A stretch of 64,000 nt of DNA. Origin: a virus. Positions 5,681 through 39,429 of the stretch are shown here, one piece after another (position 1 is the first letter of the stretch; each line of letters starts with the position of its first letter). The stretch covers positions 1 through 64,000 of the IMG/VR virus record IMGVR_UViG_3300036879_000022. One strand, written 5' to 3'. Under the pieces are notes generated by a model, which saw only the letters and a program-made list of their open reading frames with translations, searched no databases and had not been told where the DNA came from. The translations under genes and the position numbers were made by a program.

Positions 5681-6118
5681 TTACCAACCTTCACACGCTC
5701 TCAAGAGCACACAAGCCATATCTGACTTCGGGTCGATCACACTCATCGCTTCGAGGTCGGCCTCGGTCGCGATGACATCGTCGTAGCGGCTTCCGGGGAT
5801 CAGGTAGAGCTTCGCGCCATGCGCTTCGCCGACCTGTATCAGGACCCAGTGTATCCGGCTCCCCGCCGCCGTCCGGGCAGTGTGCCAAATCGATTGGCTC
5901 TCCTGCGTCTTCGACCGGATCACGGTGCCGGGTCGCTTCGGTCGAAGGTTTGACTTCAGTTCGATCCAGCACTGATCCCCGTTGATCACTCCCTCGACAT
6001 CGGGGTTGCCCATGCCGGCGTCGTTTTCGATGCGGCAGAAGTGCGTCGCATGTCCGCACTTCTTGAGGTTGGCGATCCCGGTCCGACATCGGGTCCAAAG
6101 AGATGTCTCTTTCGCCAT
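5681..6118 (-). CDS. VRR-NUC-like PD-(D/E)XK nuclease
   Basis: 145 residues. NDAGMGNPD (about 32-40) followed by CWIELKS (50-56) gives the catalytic pattern G-x-P-D...E-x-K of VRR-NUC/Holliday-resolvase-like nucleases, with a preceding Glu (E31). These act on branched or flapped DNA in replication and recombination. Length is normal for phage stand-alone members. It overlaps the upstream gene by one base (TAATG) and is near helicase, polymerase and SSB genes with which it commonly travels. Confidence 0.8.
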   Translation of the reverse strand: MAKETSLWTRCRTGIANLKKCGHATHFCRIENDAGMGNPDVEGVINGDQCWIELKSNLRPKRPGTVIRSKTQESQSIWHTARTAAGSRIHWVLIQVGEAHGAKLYLIPGSRYDDVIATEADLEAMSVIDPKSDMACVLLRACEGW

Positions 6119-7373: not shown

Positions 7374-7449
7374 TGGCTCAGGGAGTAGGGCTCGAACCTA
7401 CGACCTACGCTTTAACAGAGCGCCGCTCTACCATCTGAGCTATCCCCAA
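7374..7449 (-). tRNA. tRNA-Asn (GTT)
   Basis: 76 nt with encoded CCA. Acceptor TTGGGGA/TCCCTGA (two G-U pairs), D arm GCTC/GAGC, anticodon stem GCGCT/AGCGT around CTGTTAA, T arm GTAGG-TTCGAGC-CCTAC. Confidence 0.92.
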
Positions 7450-7455
7450 AAACCA

Positions 7456-7530
7456 TGGTGCCCGTGGCTGGTATCGAACCAGCGACCTGACGGTTATCAA
7501 CCGCCCGCTCTACCACTGAGCTACACGGGG
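7456..7530 (-). tRNA. tRNA-Ile (GAT)
   Basis: 75 nt, CCA encoded. Anticodon loop TTGATAA in a GGCGG/CCGTC stem, T arm GCTGG-TTCGATA-CCAGC. The first acceptor pair is a C-C mismatch; otherwise canonical. Confidence 0.9.
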
Positions 7531-7568
7531 CATTCGCACTAGCAAGCGGTCGCGCGCTTGCACTAATT

Positions 7569-7645
7569 TGGTGGACCGGGTCGGCTTCGAACCGACGACC
7601 CCCTGCTTGCAAAACAGGCGCTCTCCCAACTGAGCTACGCGGCCC
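7569..7645 (-). tRNA. tRNA-Ala (TGC)
   Basis: 77 nt, CCA encoded. Anticodon loop TTTGCAA in CCTGT/GCAGG, T arm GTCGG-TTCGAAG-CCGAC. The acceptor pairs as GGGCCGC/CCGGTCC (G3-U70 present, last pair mismatched) and there is one extra base before the D stem. Confidence 0.85.
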
Positions 7646-7646
7646 G

Positions 7647-7678
7647 CTGTCCCGAATTTGTATACAAATTTGGGACAG
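7647..7678. repeat. 32-bp near-perfect palindrome between two tRNAs
   Basis: ctgtcccg/aatttgtatacaaatt/tgggacag: 16-base arms with a single mismatch (7654/7671) and no loop. Lies exactly in the 40-base spacer between tRNA-Ala and tRNA-Met. May be an RNase-processing hairpin in the precursor or a dyad site for a DNA-binding protein. Confidence 0.8.
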
Positions 7679-7685
7679 AAACTTT

Positions 7686-7763
7686 TGGTGACGGACGCTT
7701 GGATTTGAACCAAGGACCCTCGGGTTATGAGCCCGACGCTCTACCGGGCTGAGCTACGCCGTC
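7686..7763 (-). tRNA. tRNA with CAT anticodon (Met, or Ile2 if lysidine-modified)
   Basis: 78 nt, CCA encoded. Anticodon loop CTCATAA in TCGGG/CCCGA, T arm CTTGG-TTCAAAT-CCAAG. One extra base in the 3' acceptor strand. No initiator-type C1-A72 mismatch, so elongator-like. Confidence 0.85.
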
Positions 7764-7764
7764 A

Positions 7765-7840
7765 TGGTGCGAAGAGATGGGGTTGAACCACCGACGCGCA
7801 CGCTTTCAACGTGCCGCTCTACCAACTGAGCTATCTTCGC
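7765..7840 (-). tRNA. tRNA-Phe (GAA)
   Basis: 76 nt, CCA encoded, perfect acceptor GCGAAGA/TCTTCGC, loop TTGAAAG in GCACG/CGTGC. Only one base separates it from the tRNA downstream. Confidence 0.92.
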
Positions 7841-7855
7841 GAAATCTAAAAGCCG

Positions 7856-7933
7856 TGGTGCCGCTGGAATGGATTTGAACCTTCGACCTACCCCTTACGA
7901 AAGGATTGCTCTACCGGGCTGAGCTACAGCGAC
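7856..7933 (-). tRNA. tRNA-Thr (CGT)
   Basis: 78 nt, CCA encoded, acceptor GTCGCTG/CAGCGGC, loop TTCGTAA in ATCCT/GGGGT. The T stem pairs only if one A is bulged out. Confidence 0.85.
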
Positions 7934-7934
7934 A

Positions 7935-8008
7935 TGGCACGGGCTCTAGGATTTGAACCTAGACTGACGGGTTCAGAGCCCGTTGGGCTACCGTTACACC
8001 AAACCCGC
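7935..8008 (-). tRNA. tRNA-Gln (CTG)
   Basis: 74 nt, CCA encoded, acceptor GCGGGTT/AGCCCGT, loop CTCTGAA in ACGGG/CCCGT, T arm CTAGG-TTCAAAT-CCTAG; one base from each neighbour. Confidence 0.9.
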
Positions 8009-8009
8009 A

Positions 8010-8083
8010 TGGCACAGGATCAAGGTTTCGAACCTTGGCCAGCGGTTTTGGAGACCGCCGTGCTACCGCTACACCAATCCTGT
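8010..8083 (-). tRNA. tRNA-Trp (CCA)
   Basis: 74 nt, CCA end encoded, perfect acceptor ACAGGAT/ATCCTGT, loop CTCCAAA in GCGGT/ACCGC, T arm CAAGG-TTCGAAA-CCTTG. Confidence 0.93.
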
Positions 8084-8142
8084 AAAGATCAGGACCAGCT
8101 TTGCGATTGCGCGGCGGCGATAATAGTCGATGTGGGATTATT

Positions 8143-8220
8143 GGTCAGGGCGGCAGGATTTGAACCTGCGTTCTTCTGGGTCCGGGCCAGACGGGGACAG
8201 CCAAACTCCCCCACGCCCTG
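8143..8220 (-). tRNA. tRNA-Pro (CGG) with C33
   Basis: 78 nt, CCA encoded, perfect acceptor CAGGGCG/CGCCCTG. Anticodon loop CCCGGAC in TCTGG/CCAGA reads CGG but has C instead of the near-universal U at position 33. T arm GCAGG-TTCAAAT-CCTGC. Confidence 0.85.
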
Positions 8221-8466: not shown

Positions 8467-8670
8467 CTAAATCGCCGCCCATGGATCAACTCGTGTATTC
8501 TGCATCTCATAGACCGCCTTGTTATAAGCGACAGCCGTCGCGCGCAGCGGATGATTGACGCATGCGGGGGAGCGCAGCCAGTTCACGAAAGCCTGAAACG
8601 TGTCGATCCGCATCGCGTGCGCCTCACGCAACGGGGCTTCGAGCCGGTCAATCTCTGTCAGTCCTTCCAT
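8467..8670 (-). CDS. Uncharacterised 67-residue protein
   Basis: Starts inside the end of rtcB (13-base overlap) after a gagggagaa site. Helical, with a FQAFVNWLRSP segment. Ends just upstream of the tRNA promoter. No family recognised. Confidence 0.6.
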   Translation of the reverse strand: MEGLTEIDRLEAPLREAHAMRIDTFQAFVNWLRSPACVNHPLRATAVAYNKAVYEMQNTRVDPWAAI

Positions 8671-10049
8671 GGGTCAAATTCTCCCTCGCCCGCCATCGCG
8701 ACGGCAAATGGTCGCAAAGTATGGAGCACCTTAACCGAACCCGCGTGGTGCGCCAGAACGTCCGGGAGCCTCCGGTATGCCATCGGGCTTTCGTCGAGAT
8801 CAGCGCCCACGAGCGTCACGCCACGGGCCTGAAGCCACTGATCCATCTGATCCTTGGTGAACGTGCGCTTGGCCTGCTTGCGGCCCATGACGCGGCCGGC
8901 GCCGTGCACGGTCGAATAGAGCGCGGCCTTGGCTTCGGGGCTATCGATGCCTTCGAGGATCACGGCGTCGTCGCCCATGGAGCCGCCGACGAAGCCCCTC
9001 TGGCCCGGGAACGCGGGCGTCGCGCCCTTGCGGACCACGAGCAGCTCGCGCTCGACGCCGTTGATGTTGTGCGTCTCTTTCCACGCGTAGTTGTGATGGT
9101 TGTGGATGCTCTCCGTGACGTTACCGCCGATGATCTGCCGGACGCGCTCGGTCACCCAGTTGCGGCCGGCGCAGGCGTACTCCCCGGCGAGCTTCATCGC
9201 TTCATAGTAGCGCGCACCGACCTCCGTGTTGAGGTTGACGACAGCGGGCGCAACGTTGATCCCATCGGTGCCGCCCGCGAGCTTGATATACTTGCTCGCC
9301 GACGTGTGGCCCAGACCACGCGAACCGAAGTGCACGCCGATCCAGACGTAGCCCTCTTCGTCGCGGAGGATGTCCACATAATGGTTGCCGGAGCCGACCG
9401 TGCCGAGCTGGGCTCGCGCCTTCTGGCGATAGTCTTCCATCTGGGCAGCGCGCCACACTTCATCCGCATCAAACAGCTCATGCTCGACACGCTCATCGTT
9501 CGAGCGCCCGACGCCAAATGAGATCGTCTTCTGCACGTCACGGATGATCGTCGGGATGTGCTCGGCGATGTCCGCGAACTTTGTGTCAAGCCGCACGGCC
9601 TTGTTGCCGCACCCGATGTCGAAGCCGACGCCGGAGATGGAGACGTGGCCCTTGTCGTATGCGATGACGCCGCCGACAGGCTGGGCGTAGCCGAGATGAC
9701 CGTCCGCACAGATCACGCCGGCCACGACGTTGCCGACCTTCATGCAGTTTTTCATCTGTTCGATCGTCTGATCGTCGTGCTCGCCGAAAATCGTCAGCGG
9801 CGCGTTCGCGTAGTCGGCCGTCTGGGCGGGCACCGACATTGCGGCGAGCTTGTCCGCGAGAACTTTCTGCTCGGCAGCAATCATTTCCTTGCGCGCGCCG
9901 TCACGGTACTCGGTCCATGCAGGGTGACCCCGGCCCATGGCCTGTTTCGTGGCGTCCCACTCTGCGCCATGTCGAGCGTCCGGGTTGAACCCGGCTTCGA
10001 GGCAGAGCTGGCGAGCGCGATGTTCATGCGGATCGGTACGTTGTGCCAA
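8658..10049 (-). CDS. rtcB: RtcB-family RNA ligase
   Basis: 463 residues, normal length. Seen: CADGHLGYAQPVGGV (metal-binding His/Asp), FDIGCG with the metal-ligand Cys (143-148), GSGNHY, HFGSRGLGH, NHHNYA, and VHGAGRVMGR, whose His accepts GMP in the known mechanism. RtcB joins 2',3'-cyclic phosphate (or 3'-phosphate) ends to 5'-OH ends, the breaks left by many anticodon nucleases. Its place beside nine tRNA genes suggests repair of tRNAs cut by host defence (inference). No archease is visible. Confidence 0.95.
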   Translation of the reverse strand: MAQRTDPHEHRARQLCLEAGFNPDARHGAEWDATKQAMGRGHPAWTEYRDGARKEMIAAEQKVLADKLAAMSVPAQTADYANAPLTIFGEHDDQTIEQMKNCMKVGNVVAGVICADGHLGYAQPVGGVIAYDKGHVSISGVGFDIGCGNKAVRLDTKFADIAEHIPTIIRDVQKTISFGVGRSNDERVEHELFDADEVWRAAQMEDYRQKARAQLGTVGSGNHYVDILRDEEGYVWIGVHFGSRGLGHTSASKYIKLAGGTDGINVAPAVVNLNTEVGARYYEAMKLAGEYACAGRNWVTERVRQIIGGNVTESIHNHHNYAWKETHNINGVERELLVVRKGATPAFPGQRGFVGGSMGDDAVILEGIDSPEAKAALYSTVHGAGRVMGRKQAKRTFTKDQMDQWLQARGVTLVGADLDESPMAYRRLPDVLAHHAGSVKVLHTLRPFAVAMAGEGEFDPWKD

Positions 10050-33658: not shown

Positions 33659-36013
33659 ATGATTTTTGATAGCTTGGCGCTCGCGCTCGCATACCTTGAT
33701 CGGCATATGTATTCGCGATATCTTTTCCCGATCGCCGCAGGCAAAAAGTTTCCGCCGTGCCTCAAAGACAATCTCGACGGCAACTGTTCGAACGACCCAA
33801 AGCAGATCATCGCGTGGGCCAAGCAGTTTCCCGGCTGCAACTGGGGCGTAGCGCACCGCAAGTCACGCTTGATGGTCGTGGACGTTGACACCAACAAAGC
33901 CAAGGGTAAGGTCGGCGACGAAACATTCGCCTATCTCGACATGCTGTACGGCTGGCCCGAAACCGAGCGCACGGGGACGCCGTCCGGCGGCTGGCATTTG
34001 ATCTACGAGGGCTGGGACGACGCAAACCATCCTGCGCACATCTTCGCGCTCGGCGAGAACGGCATCGGCAAAGATATTGATAGCCCGAACTACTCGCTGA
34101 TCCCCGGGTGCCGCTTTGCTGACGGCACGAGCTACACCACGAATGACGCCGACGCCGTCGCGTGCCCGGAATGGATTTACGACACCATCAAAAGCTCCAA
34201 GACCAAGTCGCGTATCACCGACGCGGGCGAGGTCGTTGTCGAGCTTGATCAGCAAGCGAACATCGATATCGCAATCGACTTTTTGCAGGATGATGCAGTC
34301 CCGGCCATCGAAGGGTCGGGCGGCGACTTCAATACCCTGAAGACCGCGATGTACCTCAAGGACCTCGGCATCTCGCCGACGCTGTCCGTCGATCTCTTGA
34401 ACGAATACTACAATCCCCGCTGCGTGCCGCCGTGGGATCGCGATGATCTGGAGCGCAAGGTTGAGAACGCCTTCGCCTACTCCAGCCTCTCGAAGGCCGG
34501 CGGCAAAACCGCCGAGGCCGACTTCGCCGATGACGCGCCCGAGCCAATCACGCGGAAGGGCACCTACAATATCGAGACCAAGCAATACGAGTTCAAGCCC
34601 AGTGCCGATCCGGACACCGCCAAAGAGAACCGGGAAGCCGCGCGAAAGGGGGTCGCTGCTCTTACGCCAGAGCAACGAGAGCGATTTCTGAAGATGACCG
34701 AACTCATCAATGAGTGGGTATGGGTCGGTGGCCTCAAGCGGTTCATTGAAAAGGTAGACACCCGGCGTCTCTGGGACAAGGAAGCCTTCAACAGCCAGTA
34801 CAACAACATTCTCGGCGAGAAGGCCACCAAAAATATCTCCGACGTTCTGCTCCGCAAAAAGAAAGGCACGATCGCCCGCTTCAAAGAGATCGCGTACAAG
34901 CCCGGGCTAGGGCAGAGGATCAGCGGCGAGGTCTTCAACGTCTATCTGCCCTCGGACGTGCTCCCGGTGGAGGGCGATGTCTCGTGGTGGGATGATCATC
35001 TCGAATACCTCTTCCCGATTGAAGAGGATCGCGTGATGGTCCTCAATTGGATGGCTTGGCTACTCCAGAACATGGCGACCAAGCCAAAGCACGCGTTGCT
35101 GATCCAAGGCGATGATCAGGGTACGGGCAAGAGTTTTCTTGTCGAGATGCTCGGCCGTATCCTCGGCCAGCGCAACGTCTCGAACATCAATCAGACCGAT
35201 TTGCACGGCGACTTCAATGGATGGGCTCAGCACTCGAAGCTGCTCGTCATCGAAGAGCTGCGCGCGATCGATAAGACCGAGGTCGCCAACAAGCTGCATC
35301 CGTTGATCACGCAAGACATGATCAGCGTCAACGAAAAGAACCTGCCCCGGCGCGATGTTGAAAACTGTTTCGGTATCTTCGCGATGTCAAACCATGAGGC
35401 AGCCCTCAATCTCGACGACAAGGACCGGCGCTATCTCGTCATCAACACGAAGGCGACACCGCGTTACGGGAAGGGCTCGCCGGCCTCGGTCGCATACTAT
35501 ACCGACCTCTACGTCACGAAGCTCAATGACCCGGCGGCCGTCGCGGCCGTCGCATTCAAGCTCCAGAACTGGGACTACGGCGAGTACAGCGGCGCGGCAG
35601 CCGCGCCCGCTACGTCGGCCAAGACTTCGATGATCACGGCCGGTCAGAGCGATCTCGAACATTGGATGGATGAGAACCGCGACAAATTCCCGTTGAATGG
35701 TCGGGTCGTCGCGGTCAGCGATATCATCTTGGTCTTGCCAAAACGTCTGGAGGGCCGAAGCCCGCGCCTGCATGCGTCCATCAAGGGCATCTTGATGCGG
35801 AGGTTCGGCGCCGAAGAGGTCGGACAGGCCACGCTCTCCGATGGCGAGCGTCCGCGTCTGTACGCGATCAACGGCAAAGCAGGTATCCTGAAGAACCTCT
35901 CGCCCAAGGCAATCGGCACGATCTACGAGACCGACAGGGCGAAGGCGGGCAAGGGCCAGCCTCTCGACGATGACGCGACCGAAGAGTTCGGCGAACCCAA
36001 CAATATAGCTTGA
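33659..36013 (+). CDS. NrS-1-like primase-polymerase/helicase
   Basis: 784 residues. N-terminal prim-pol (AEP) domain: SRLMVVDVDTNK (about 70-80) with catalytic Asp pair, GGWHLIYEG with the conserved His. Middle helical PriCT-like region (DFNTLKTAMYLKDLGISP). C-terminal SF3/DUF5906-type helicase: Walker A GDDQGTGKSF (about 483-492), Walker B KLLVIEEL, then NKLHPLITQ and FAMSNHEAAL. This matches self-priming replication proteins such as that of phage NrS-1: primer synthesis and unwinding in one chain. Starts its own rightward transcript. Confidence 0.9.
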   Translation: MIFDSLALALAYLDRHMYSRYLFPIAAGKKFPPCLKDNLDGNCSNDPKQIIAWAKQFPGCNWGVAHRKSRLMVVDVDTNKAKGKVGDETFAYLDMLYGWPETERTGTPSGGWHLIYEGWDDANHPAHIFALGENGIGKDIDSPNYSLIPGCRFADGTSYTTNDADAVACPEWIYDTIKSSKTKSRITDAGEVVVELDQQANIDIAIDFLQDDAVPAIEGSGGDFNTLKTAMYLKDLGISPTLSVDLLNEYYNPRCVPPWDRDDLERKVENAFAYSSLSKAGGKTAEADFADDAPEPITRKGTYNIETKQYEFKPSADPDTAKENREAARKGVAALTPEQRERFLKMTELINEWVWVGGLKRFIEKVDTRRLWDKEAFNSQYNNILGEKATKNISDVLLRKKKGTIARFKEIAYKPGLGQRISGEVFNVYLPSDVLPVEGDVSWWDDHLEYLFPIEEDRVMVLNWMAWLLQNMATKPKHALLIQGDDQGTGKSFLVEMLGRILGQRNVSNINQTDLHGDFNGWAQHSKLLVIEELRAIDKTEVANKLHPLITQDMISVNEKNLPRRDVENCFGIFAMSNHEAALNLDDKDRRYLVINTKATPRYGKGSPASVAYYTDLYVTKLNDPAAVAAVAFKLQNWDYGEYSGAAAAPATSAKTSMITAGQSDLEHWMDENRDKFPLNGRVVAVSDIILVLPKRLEGRSPRLHASIKGILMRRFGAEEVGQATLSDGERPRLYAINGKAGILKNLSPKAIGTIYETDRAKAGKGQPLDDDATEEFGEPNNIA

Positions 36014-36028
36014 AACAGGTAGCTGCCT

Positions 36029-36733
36029 ATGGTAGACGAAGTTCGCGACTGTAGCTCAATGTTAGAGCACCCCGGGTCCACTGGGGAAGATGGCGGTGCA
36101 ATTCCGACCCGGTCGCTCCATATCAAACAAATCCCCGTTGCCCAAGCCCGTGCGTTCATCAAGATGTGGCACAGTCGTTTGCCCAATTGCGATGGGCCTT
36201 TCAAGATCGCGTTTGGGGCGTTCGATCAGGGCGGCTACCTCATGGCGGCTGCACTCTGGCATAACTGCTCAGCGCGAAACCTCCCGCAAGACTGGACTGA
36301 GTTGCGGCGCATGGCTGTCGCCAGCATGTACGCGCCACCGAATACGGCGTCCATCATGATCGGCCAAATGGTCAGATGGTTCAAGAGAGAAGGCAAAGCG
36401 ACAACGCTCGTCTCTTATCAGGACCTCGGTGAAGGCGCCCCTAACTCAGTAGGGTTCGTCAAGCATACCGGCACGATCTACAAAGCAACTAATTGGACCC
36501 CGGTAGCGATCAGCCGTCCGCGTCTTCGAACCCGCACAGTAGCGGATCAAGATTGGGTCAAGAATGGTCGGAAGGTGTACCGCCGTAATGACAAAAACCT
36601 CACGCCGGAGGGGACGACCGACGCTATCGCATCCGCGAAAGTCCGTTGGCAGTACAGCTTGCGAGGCGAGAAGTTCACTGCCCTGACCCCGGAGCAGATC
36701 GAGGCCGCCCGAAGGATGAAGCCGACCAAATAG
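36029..36733 (+). CDS. XF1762/Mom-like acyltransferase-fold protein
   Basis: 234 residues from ATG 36029, but the first ~31 codons are the DNA of a tRNA-like sequence and match nothing. From about residue 32: HIKQIPVAQARAFIKMWHSR, KIAFGAFDQGGYLMAAALW, WTELRRMAVASMYAPPN, TLVSYQDLGEG and GTIYKATNWTP follow the GNAT-like phage family that includes Mom relatives. Mom modifies adenine in phage DNA; for this family member the function is not proven. No ATG/GTG/TTG lies near the conserved start, so the true start is uncertain. Confidence 0.7.
   Translation: MVDEVRDCSSMLEHPGSTGEDGGAIPTRSLHIKQIPVAQARAFIKMWHSRLPNCDGPFKIAFGAFDQGGYLMAAALWHNCSARNLPQDWTELRRMAVASMYAPPNTASIMIGQMVRWFKREGKATTLVSYQDLGEGAPNSVGFVKHTGTIYKATNWTPVAISRPRLRTRTVADQDWVKNGRKVYRRNDKNLTPEGTTDAIASAKVRWQYSLRGEKFTALTPEQIEAARRMKPTK
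36045..36120 (+). tRNA. tRNA-like sequence, probably tRNA-Gly (TCC)
   Basis: 76 nt with CCA and U73 (as glycine tRNAs have). Acceptor GCGACTG/CGGTCGC, D arm GCTC-AATGTTA-GAGC, anticodon arm CCCCG-GGTCCAC-TGGGG (TCC, but G33), T arm GGCGG-TGCAATT-CCGAC with one mismatch and one extra base. Lies in sense orientation within the start of the next gene. Confidence 0.6.
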
Positions 36734-38201: not shown

Positions 38202-38230
38202 TTGACACGCCTCACACATCGGTCTAGTCT
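38202..38230 (+). promoter_or_regulatory. tmRNA promoter
   Basis: TTGACA (38202-38207), 17-base spacer, TAGTCT (38225-38230); start expected near 38237. Confidence 0.85.
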
Positions 38231-38236
38231 TCGGGT

Positions 38237-38631
38237 GCGATCGATACAACGGACGAGGCTTTGGCCCTCACGTACCAAGGTGCGCAAAGAGGGATGGGTA
38301 GCGAGCGGTTGACCAATCGAGCGTGATGGTTCTGAATGTTGAGACGGACTGCGGTCAGACCCGGGGGCAGTACCCGGCGCCTCCACCACGAGCAGCGCGA
38401 TGAGGCATGGATGCCTTGCACTAAATGTGCGTACACCCCTCGGGGAACACGCGCTGCTTCTGATGGGGGCGACACAGGATCGATGGACGCTCGGAAAGTC
38501 TCGAAAGTGAACTCGGCGTGATCTGCCGCGATCGGATCAAACACCTAAATGACAACGACAACTTTGTCATGGATCAGCGCCTCGCGGCGTAACGTTCCGG
38601 GGTTGGTCGCCTAGCAACAGAAAGACCCCAG
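38237..38631 (+). ncRNA. ssrA: Circularly permuted two-piece tmRNA
   Basis: The acceptor piece comes first and ends CGCCTCC-A-CCA (38378-38388), preceded by a T-arm-like ccggg-ggcagta-cccgg. After 76 bases, whose ends pair as gcagcgcg/cgcgctgc, the coding piece begins GGGGGCG (38465-38471). GGGGGCG pairs with CGCCTCC and includes the G3-U70 alanine identity pair. A reading frame at 38551-38592 encodes DNDNFVMDQRLAA and stops with taa. It rescues stalled ribosomes and tags the product for ClpXP. The permuted order and NDNF...AA tag are typical of alphaproteobacteria. Mature ends are not determined. Confidence 0.9.
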
Positions 38632-38667
38632 ACGCCCTAGCCGCAAGGCTGGGGCGTTTTGCTTTAT
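38632..38667 (+). terminator. tmRNA terminator
   Basis: acgccctagcc-gcaa-ggctggggcgt, 11-bp stem (one G-U), then ttttgcttta. Confidence 0.92.
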
Positions 38668-38707: not shown

Positions 38708-39196
38708 TTAAAAGGGGATGTCTTCTGGGGGCGGCGTCTTGGACCGCGCTGGGCGGACCGGAGAACGCGCTGTACGCCTATTCTGGGAGGGGGTCGCCCA
38801 TTCGAGGTTGTCCCGCCGGCAATTCAGGCTGTCGCCGTCGCCGTGGTCGCCCATGACGTGCTTTCCGCAGGGTGGGAGCTTCATTGAGCGGACCAAGATT
38901 TCCTTGTGGAGATAGAGCTTGATCCGGCGCGGACCGGCATGGGTCGAGCGCGTCGCATACGCTTTGCGTTTGTGCCGGTCCCACGTGATCTGCCACTTCC
39001 ACTGAAGCGCCCACGCATAGTCCTCGAATGAGACCGTGGCGTAAATGCCTGCCTCAACGTCGAGCCAAATGCGGTGTTCAATAGTAGTAGTGCGGAGGGA
39101 GGCATCCGACGCTGATGAAGCCGGGTCGGCCACTGGCTTCGATCCATCGCCATGCAATGGCGAGGCCACAACGATCGGCCGGGACTGTTCGCTCAT
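38708..39196 (-). CDS. HNH endonuclease
   Basis: 162 residues from ATG 39196. VMGDHGDGDSLNCRRDNLEW followed by ATPSQNRR is the HNH pattern of phage homing-type enzymes (D-H...L-x-N-R-x-x-N-L-x-x-A-T). N-terminal part has YATVSFEDYAWALQWKW, a typical substrate-strand region. Free-standing HNH genes nick or cut DNA and spread by homing; this one sits at the end of the leftward operon beside the tmRNA terminator. Confidence 0.8.
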   Translation of the reverse strand: MSEQSRPIVVASPLHGDGSKPVADPASSASDASLRTTTIEHRIWLDVEAGIYATVSFEDYAWALQWKWQITWDRHKRKAYATRSTHAGPRRIKLYLHKEILVRSMKLPPCGKHVMGDHGDGDSLNCRRDNLEWATPSQNRRTARSPVRPARSKTPPPEDIPF

Positions 39197-39245
39197 AGCA
39201 AGGGGCTTCCCAGTCGGCGTGGTAGGTGAAGACATAGGCGTGCAT
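39078..39245 (-). CDS. Uncharacterised 55-residue protein
   Basis: MHAYVFTYHADWEAPCYERT..., ending HYYY. It overlaps the HNH gene's N-terminus in another frame by 119 bases, so one of the two starts may be wrong. Confidence 0.45.
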   Translation of the reverse strand: MHAYVFTYHADWEAPCYERTVPADRCGLAIAWRWIEASGRPGFISVGCLPPHYYY

Positions 39246-39246
39246 G

Positions 39247-39429
39247 TCACGCAACGCGGAAGAGGATGATATTGTCGGGGAGTTCTTCTCCCGGGTCGGG
39301 GTCACCGTCATCGAAGCCCTCTATCAACAGAACCATGCAAGCCAAAGTCTTGACCGCGAACGTGTCGCCGCCGATCGCGCGACGCTCCAGCTCATTGACG
39401 TGAGCAACGATGTCTTGGCGGGTGCTCAT
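39247..39429 (-). CDS. Uncharacterised 60-residue protein
   Basis: Coupled to the upstream stop by ATGA. Helical (MSTRQDIVAHVNELERRA) with an acidic tail. No family recognised. Confidence 0.6.
   Translation of the reverse strand: MSTRQDIVAHVNELERRAIGGDTFAVKTLACMVLLIEGFDDGDPDPGEELPDNIILFRVA

Follow-up and report, generated by a model that had tools for sequence, protein, structure and literature searches.

The window, a stretch of 64,000 nucleotides that belongs to a virus record 84,382 bases long, carries a circularly permuted tmRNA gene of the two-piece type at positions 38268-38632. We consider it probable that this is a working ssrA gene, inherited with the phage, which supplements host trans-translation and in which an Asp resume codon is tolerated or mildly selected. 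When the 64 kb were searched against all Rfam families, the alpha_tmRNA model (RF01849) matched 38268-38632 on the forward strand with 120.7 bits (E 2.3e-32), and the tmRNA_permuted model (RF04321) matched 38328-38592 with 110.7 bits, both above the curated gathering cut-offs (50 and 47 bits, respectively). An earlier sequence-only reading had proposed a permuted tmRNA here and had named a covariance-model search as its check; the two matches, together with the acceptor strands and the linker, bear that proposal out. In the RF04321 alignment all consensus pairs are standard, the models holding no pseudoknots. The gene folds with a z of -5.4 relative to shuffles, none of 100 shuffles being equally stable, and this value and the E value of 2.3e-32 exclude a chance match. 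ARAGORN reported no tmRNA in the window, a negative that was set aside because the two Rfam models agree. An antisense ORF lying over the gene (38224-38544) was rejected as spurious.

The gene has the architecture of the alphaproteobacterial permuted tmRNAs (RF01849/RF04321), exemplified by Caulobacter ssrA, in that the acceptor 3′ half lies 5′ of the coding piece with a linker between them (Table 1). It also shares with them the G3-U70 acceptor stem, the encoded CCA, the T-arm, the frame element, an NDN...LAA tag and the terminal GCAACAGAA motif. It differs from the cellular copies in being carried by a phage, in having GAC instead of GCN as resume codon and in its lower model score (110.7 bits versus 113-166 bits for the full-length RF04321 matches among the cellular alphaproteobacterial tmRNAs found). 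The acceptor strands CGCCTCC and GGGGGCG pair at seven of seven positions with G3-U70 present, as had been read from the sequence. The linker had been described as 76 nt long and closed by a stem of 8 bp; its length and the presence of the stem are correct, but the stem has 10 pairs (GAGCAGCGCG, 38390-38399, with CGCGCTGCTT, 38450-38459). A conserved TGAT stands in the linker directly 5′ of the predicted cut site.

Table 1. Features of the tmRNA gene and its neighbours, in window coordinates.
Feature	Position	Strand	Basis or remark
Primase/helicase-like protein, 5′ of tmRNA	33659..36013	+	PHROG 1156, E 2e-46; shared with L249, L007, L237
Sigma-70-like promoter: TTGACA (38202-38207), 17 nt, TAGTCT (38225-38230)	38202..38230	+	Sequence, conservation
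Acceptor piece (tRNA-like 3′ half, encoded CCA at end)	38268..38388	+	RF01849, RF04321; 5′ end approximate
T-arm CCGGG/CCCGG	38361..38377	+	Sequence, Rfam alignment
Acceptor stem 3′ strand CGCCTCC, discriminator A, CCA	38378..38388	+	U70 paired with G3
Linker (intervening sequence), 76 nt	38389..38464	+	No ORF within; predicted removal in mature form
Acceptor 5′ strand GGGGGCG	38465..38471	+	Start of coding piece
Coding piece, from GGGGGCG, with conserved 3′ motif	38465..38632	+	RF01849 alignment; 3′ end approximate
Frame-setting element UAAAU, A at -4 of resume codon	38546..38550	+	Matches E. coli A86 ruler (PMC2481249)
Tag reading frame GAC...TAA, resume codon GAC (Asp)	38551..38592	+	DNDNFVMDQRLAA-stop; frame, alignment
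Intrinsic terminator ACGCCCTAGCC-GCAA-GGCTGGGGCGT + TTTTGCTTT	38632..38657	+	11 pairs, GCAA loop, T-rich tail
HNH endonuclease, convergent with tmRNA	38708..39250	-	PF13392, E 1e-6; kept in 4/4 related phages

Three criteria identify GAC, nucleotides 87-89 of the coding piece, as the resume codon: the reading frame, the alignment to relatives and the A at -4 (UAAAU/GAC), which follows the A86 rule of E. coli tmRNA (PMC2481249) and is failed by the codons adjoining GAC. The Asp codon and the retained LAA degron had both been proposed before, and both hold, the tag ending in the LAA type followed by a stop. A GCN (Ala) resume codon, which is usual in alphaproteobacterial tmRNAs without defining them, is replaced here by GAC. 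The tag is ordinary except for its first residue. It is close to ANDNVVMDARLAA of one cellular alphaproteobacterial genome, from which it differs in that residue, and another virus (L204) has DNDNFVMEDRLAA; in view of these two tags, the claim that VMDQR is not a common middle is not supported. In that cellular genome (G030, locus L269), the only tmRNA detected is itself phage-like in score (113 bits).

That the gene is phage-borne, as had been suggested, is supported by the helicase, DNA polymerase, exonuclease, primase, terminase, portal and scaffold genes of the record and by synteny in three related viral contigs. In L249, L007 and L237, the primases of which are 78%, 54% and 48% identical to that of the window, respectively, the order of primase, tmRNA and convergent HNH endonuclease is kept at the same place, and all three tmRNAs pass the Rfam models. 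The acceptor stem has changed on both strands, from CGCCTCC/GGGGGCG in the window to CGGCTCC/GGGGCCG in L007. Position is thus conserved, sequence diverged and structure kept, and therefore the tmRNA has been passed down with the phage and maintained. Among named phages, Roseobacter phage RDJL3 is the closest in polymerase and primase (38% and 32% identity); the 17.3-kb stretch of RDJL3 that holds its primase (L423) gave nothing above the Rfam cut-offs, and a megablast search of 23 kb against phages gave no match.

A promoter and a terminator of its own had also been ascribed to the gene, and the evidence agrees. The TTGACA-17 nt-TAGTCT pattern fell below the threshold of a generic promoter scan; it was accepted nevertheless because TTGACA and a downstream TA...T hexamer occur at the equivalent place in all three relatives. 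The terminator is an 11-pair hairpin with a T-rich tail. The idea that the gene is passive cargo, a fragment of host ssrA acquired at integration or excision, gains some plausibility from ssrA being a frequent integration site (PMC11915505), but the gene is complete with its own signals, four diverged phages retain it at the same place, with compensatory changes, and no integrase was found in the 84,382 bases of the record, which may be incomplete. We regard this origin as extremely improbable. Just 3′ of the primase lies a gene for a Mom-like DNA modification protein (36029-36733; PF25680, E 6e-11), the start of which is overlapped by a candidate tRNA-Gly (36045-36120) reported by ARAGORN and absent from the Rfam matches.

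We infer the following course for the processing, charging, activity, timing and benefit of this tmRNA. A single transcript would span the region between the promoter (38202-38230) and the end of the terminator (38657); the host enzymes that process tRNAs would excise the stem-closed linker, leaving two products, an acceptor RNA with CCA at its end and a coding RNA, paired through the acceptor stem. Host AlaRS would charge the molecule via G3-U70, host SmpB would deliver it to ribosomes that had stalled on broken mRNA, translation would resume at GAC, as set by UAAAU, and Ala-DNDNFVMDQRLAA would be added to the protein for host ClpXP-type proteolysis. The phage tmRNA would in this way supplement host trans-translation during infection, and the Asp codon, tolerated or mildly selected, would impair neither rescue nor degron.

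SmpB (PF01668) was not found in the 84,382-base record by a search that detected it in 10 control genomes; as the record may be incomplete, neither this absence nor that of an integrase weighs heavily. On this basis, the tmRNA would work only with the SmpB of the host, either as a supplement or as a competitor. As a competitor, the phage RNA would mainly titrate host SmpB or ribosomes and damp host trans-translation; a phage without SmpB must compete for that of its host, and it has been reported that RNA consisting only of the tRNA-like domain, as in the tRNA-like-only tmRNA of mycobacteriophage DS6A, inhibits tmRNA (PMC4131195, PMC11915505). In contrast to the DS6A RNA, which has no tag frame, the tmRNA of the window has a tag frame and a stop. 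The full frame, stop, frame-setting element and LAA degron, present in the window and in its relatives, would be needless for a pure decoy, and we hold such a role to be quite unlikely.

The tmRNAs of other bacteria include known examples with Asp, Gly, Val and further resume codons (PMC1168896, PMC2584231), and function is not abolished when the resume codon is other than Ala, since Val is functional in Helicobacter pylori (PMC2584231). Because Asp and Val are already known elsewhere, the tmRNA described here is a variant of a known molecule and not a new kind. Staphylococcus epidermidis (Asp; PMC1168896) and H. pylori (GUA, Val; PMC2584231) resemble the window in their non-Ala resume codons; however, their tmRNAs are cellular and fall outside the alphaproteobacterial permuted family, and the likeness does not imply a common origin of the codon change. 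In Caulobacter crescentus, the host of the Caulobacter phages CcrColossus and CcrPW, the resume codon is GCG, Ala (PMC1168896).

Among viruses, a scan for Asp in the AAAT context revealed three further lineages with an Asp resume codon, L036 (DNDNFVRQDFALAA), L201/L202 (DNDNIAFGDMLLAA) and L204, all of which pass the Rfam models. A wider viral scan found Val in about 32 contigs, and RF04321 was passed by all 10 of those tested, including Caulobacter phages CcrColossus and CcrPW, which belong to the same Rfam family as the window and have the tag VNDNDAPVMEQ(L/R)LAA. All four Asp lineages, and most of the Val ones, have a tag that ends in LAA. Pattern matches in L153 and L203 were attributed to chance. 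Most phage tmRNAs keep GCN, and we estimate the non-Ala share in the AAAT context at about 2-3%, setting about 32 contigs with Val, 5 with Asp and 1 with Gly against roughly 1,300 with Ala, the last number being scaled from the 106 contigs of an IMG/VR scan for GCC only.

In cells, the resume codon was Ala in 45 of 45 alphaproteobacterial tmRNAs found by pattern and in 59 of 59 readable ones, so that Asp occurs in none of about 100. Among the 59, an apparent GAT in L531 was rejected, the start having been misplaced in GCA-AAT-GAT, where the true reading is Ala. A scan of 84,980 species genomes, covering the AAAT context only, returned 22 matches to Asp, none of them tmRNA-like as judged by reading frame and context rather than by Rfam. 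The Asp resume codon is a rare change, found in few virus lineages. Asp and Val are not proven to be strictly phage-specific, nor is their enrichment in phages, because, at a share of 2-3%, a sample of about 100 cellular sequences is too small to rule out the same rate in cells.

Within the clade of the window phage, the codon is Asp in the window, Val in L237 and L249, and GTC-GCA in L007, and these differences indicate that it is labile there; GTC-GCN, as in L007 and some Caulobacter phages, can be read as either Val or Ala. It could be supposed that alphaproteobacterial viruses repeatedly move the resume codon from Ala to Val or Asp for a function or immunity absent from host ssrA, a generalisation that seems rather doubtful to us. 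If true, the change might, for instance, let the phage RNA escape a nuclease that acts on the resume codon of the host, or alter the way in which adaptors deliver tagged proteins. In a reading specific to the window, the phage copy would be a spare part that replaces host tmRNA damaged or depleted by RNase toxins or infection, the changed codon escaping a nuclease that reads GCN. The recurrence of Asp and Val in several phage lineages agrees with this, as does the proposal that phage tRNAs evade tRNA-targeting defences (PMC10264068). A nine-tRNA array (7374-8220) that adjoins an RtcB RNA ligase gene (8658-10049) suggests a theme of translation repair, and is possibly a tRNA-repair module against anticodon nucleases. 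Nevertheless, our analysis identified no nuclease that specifically targets the resume codon in alphaproteobacterial tmRNA, and the prevalence of GCN in phage tmRNAs argues against it. We rank the spare-part role next after supplementation, which is the most likely, and deem it unlikely, with decoy and passive cargo behind it.

The sequence-only reading took a permuted tmRNA to be rare in a phage, a view that the literature and our own scans overturn. A 2022 survey, the one that described methylophage Melnitz, counted 133 distinct phage tmRNAs, of which 53 were two-piece (PMC9004378), and a 2025 database contains 79 phage tmRNA sequences (PMC11915505); pattern scans of IMG/VR gave at least well over 100 contigs with a permuted tmRNA. 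Like the window phage, Melnitz and the pelagimyophages carry a permuted ssrA related to that of Alphaproteobacteria, although the Melnitz copy, unlike that of the window, is associated with a glutamine riboswitch (PMC9004378). Rhodobacter phages RcRudolph and RcSimone-Hastad (L002, L003) have a tmRNA of the same Rfam family with an Ala resume codon (ANDNVRMDAQALAA), unannotated in public records; in RcRudolph a hypothetical gene, RCRUDOLPH_61, has been called over it. Unannotated permuted tmRNAs are likewise present in giant Caulobacter phages, CcrColossus and CcrPW among them (37 records by similarity, six of them read, L424-L429).

Across 162 distinct phage loci there are 16 types of acceptor stem, all fully paired; pairing and G3-U70 were search conditions, and only the diversity of stem types counts as evidence. 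No such condition was set on the linker stem, and in the 117 phage loci with different sequences it has at least 7 pairs in 96% of them, against 9% of shuffled linkers; TGAT directly precedes the coding piece in 92 of the 117. Phage-borne trans-translation is widespread in alphaproteobacterial viruses but mostly lacks annotation, and this holds even for the laboratory phages of Caulobacter and Rhodobacter, in which it is directly testable. With Asp and Val resume codons occurring naturally in a family that otherwise has only Ala, one can ask why bacteria keep alanine at this position and whether phage and host tmRNAs are interchangeable.

Linkers of 150 nt or more occur in 37 of 256 phage loci, whereas the maximum in 56 cellular genomes is 84 nt. 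These long linkers frequently hold a small protein gene on the same strand, as observed in L301, L370, L309, L065, L360 and L440, and also in L477, L498, L341, L359 and L084. The encoded proteins mostly have hydrophobic, membrane-like segments, and a purine-rich stretch often lies just 5′ of the start. Differences by codon position number 9, 4 and 29 between L301 and L370, and 11, 2 and 28 between L065 and L360; since they fall mostly at third positions, the linker proteins of the compared pairs are under purifying selection. PHROGs gave no confident family for the eight linker proteins tested. The 2025 database paper mentions a tRNA gene and a repeat within such linkers, as well as tmRNA introns with homing endonucleases; a term search of that text found no mention of linker protein genes (PMC11915505), and a non-exhaustive literature search found no report of them. 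They may be more novel than the Asp-resume tmRNA itself. The tmRNA linker of the sister phage L237 contains a LAGLIDADG endonuclease gene (5696-6097; PF14528, E 3e-7). L083 and L116 each carry a tandem, partly duplicated permuted tmRNA gene, in which a second acceptor piece interrupts the first copy.
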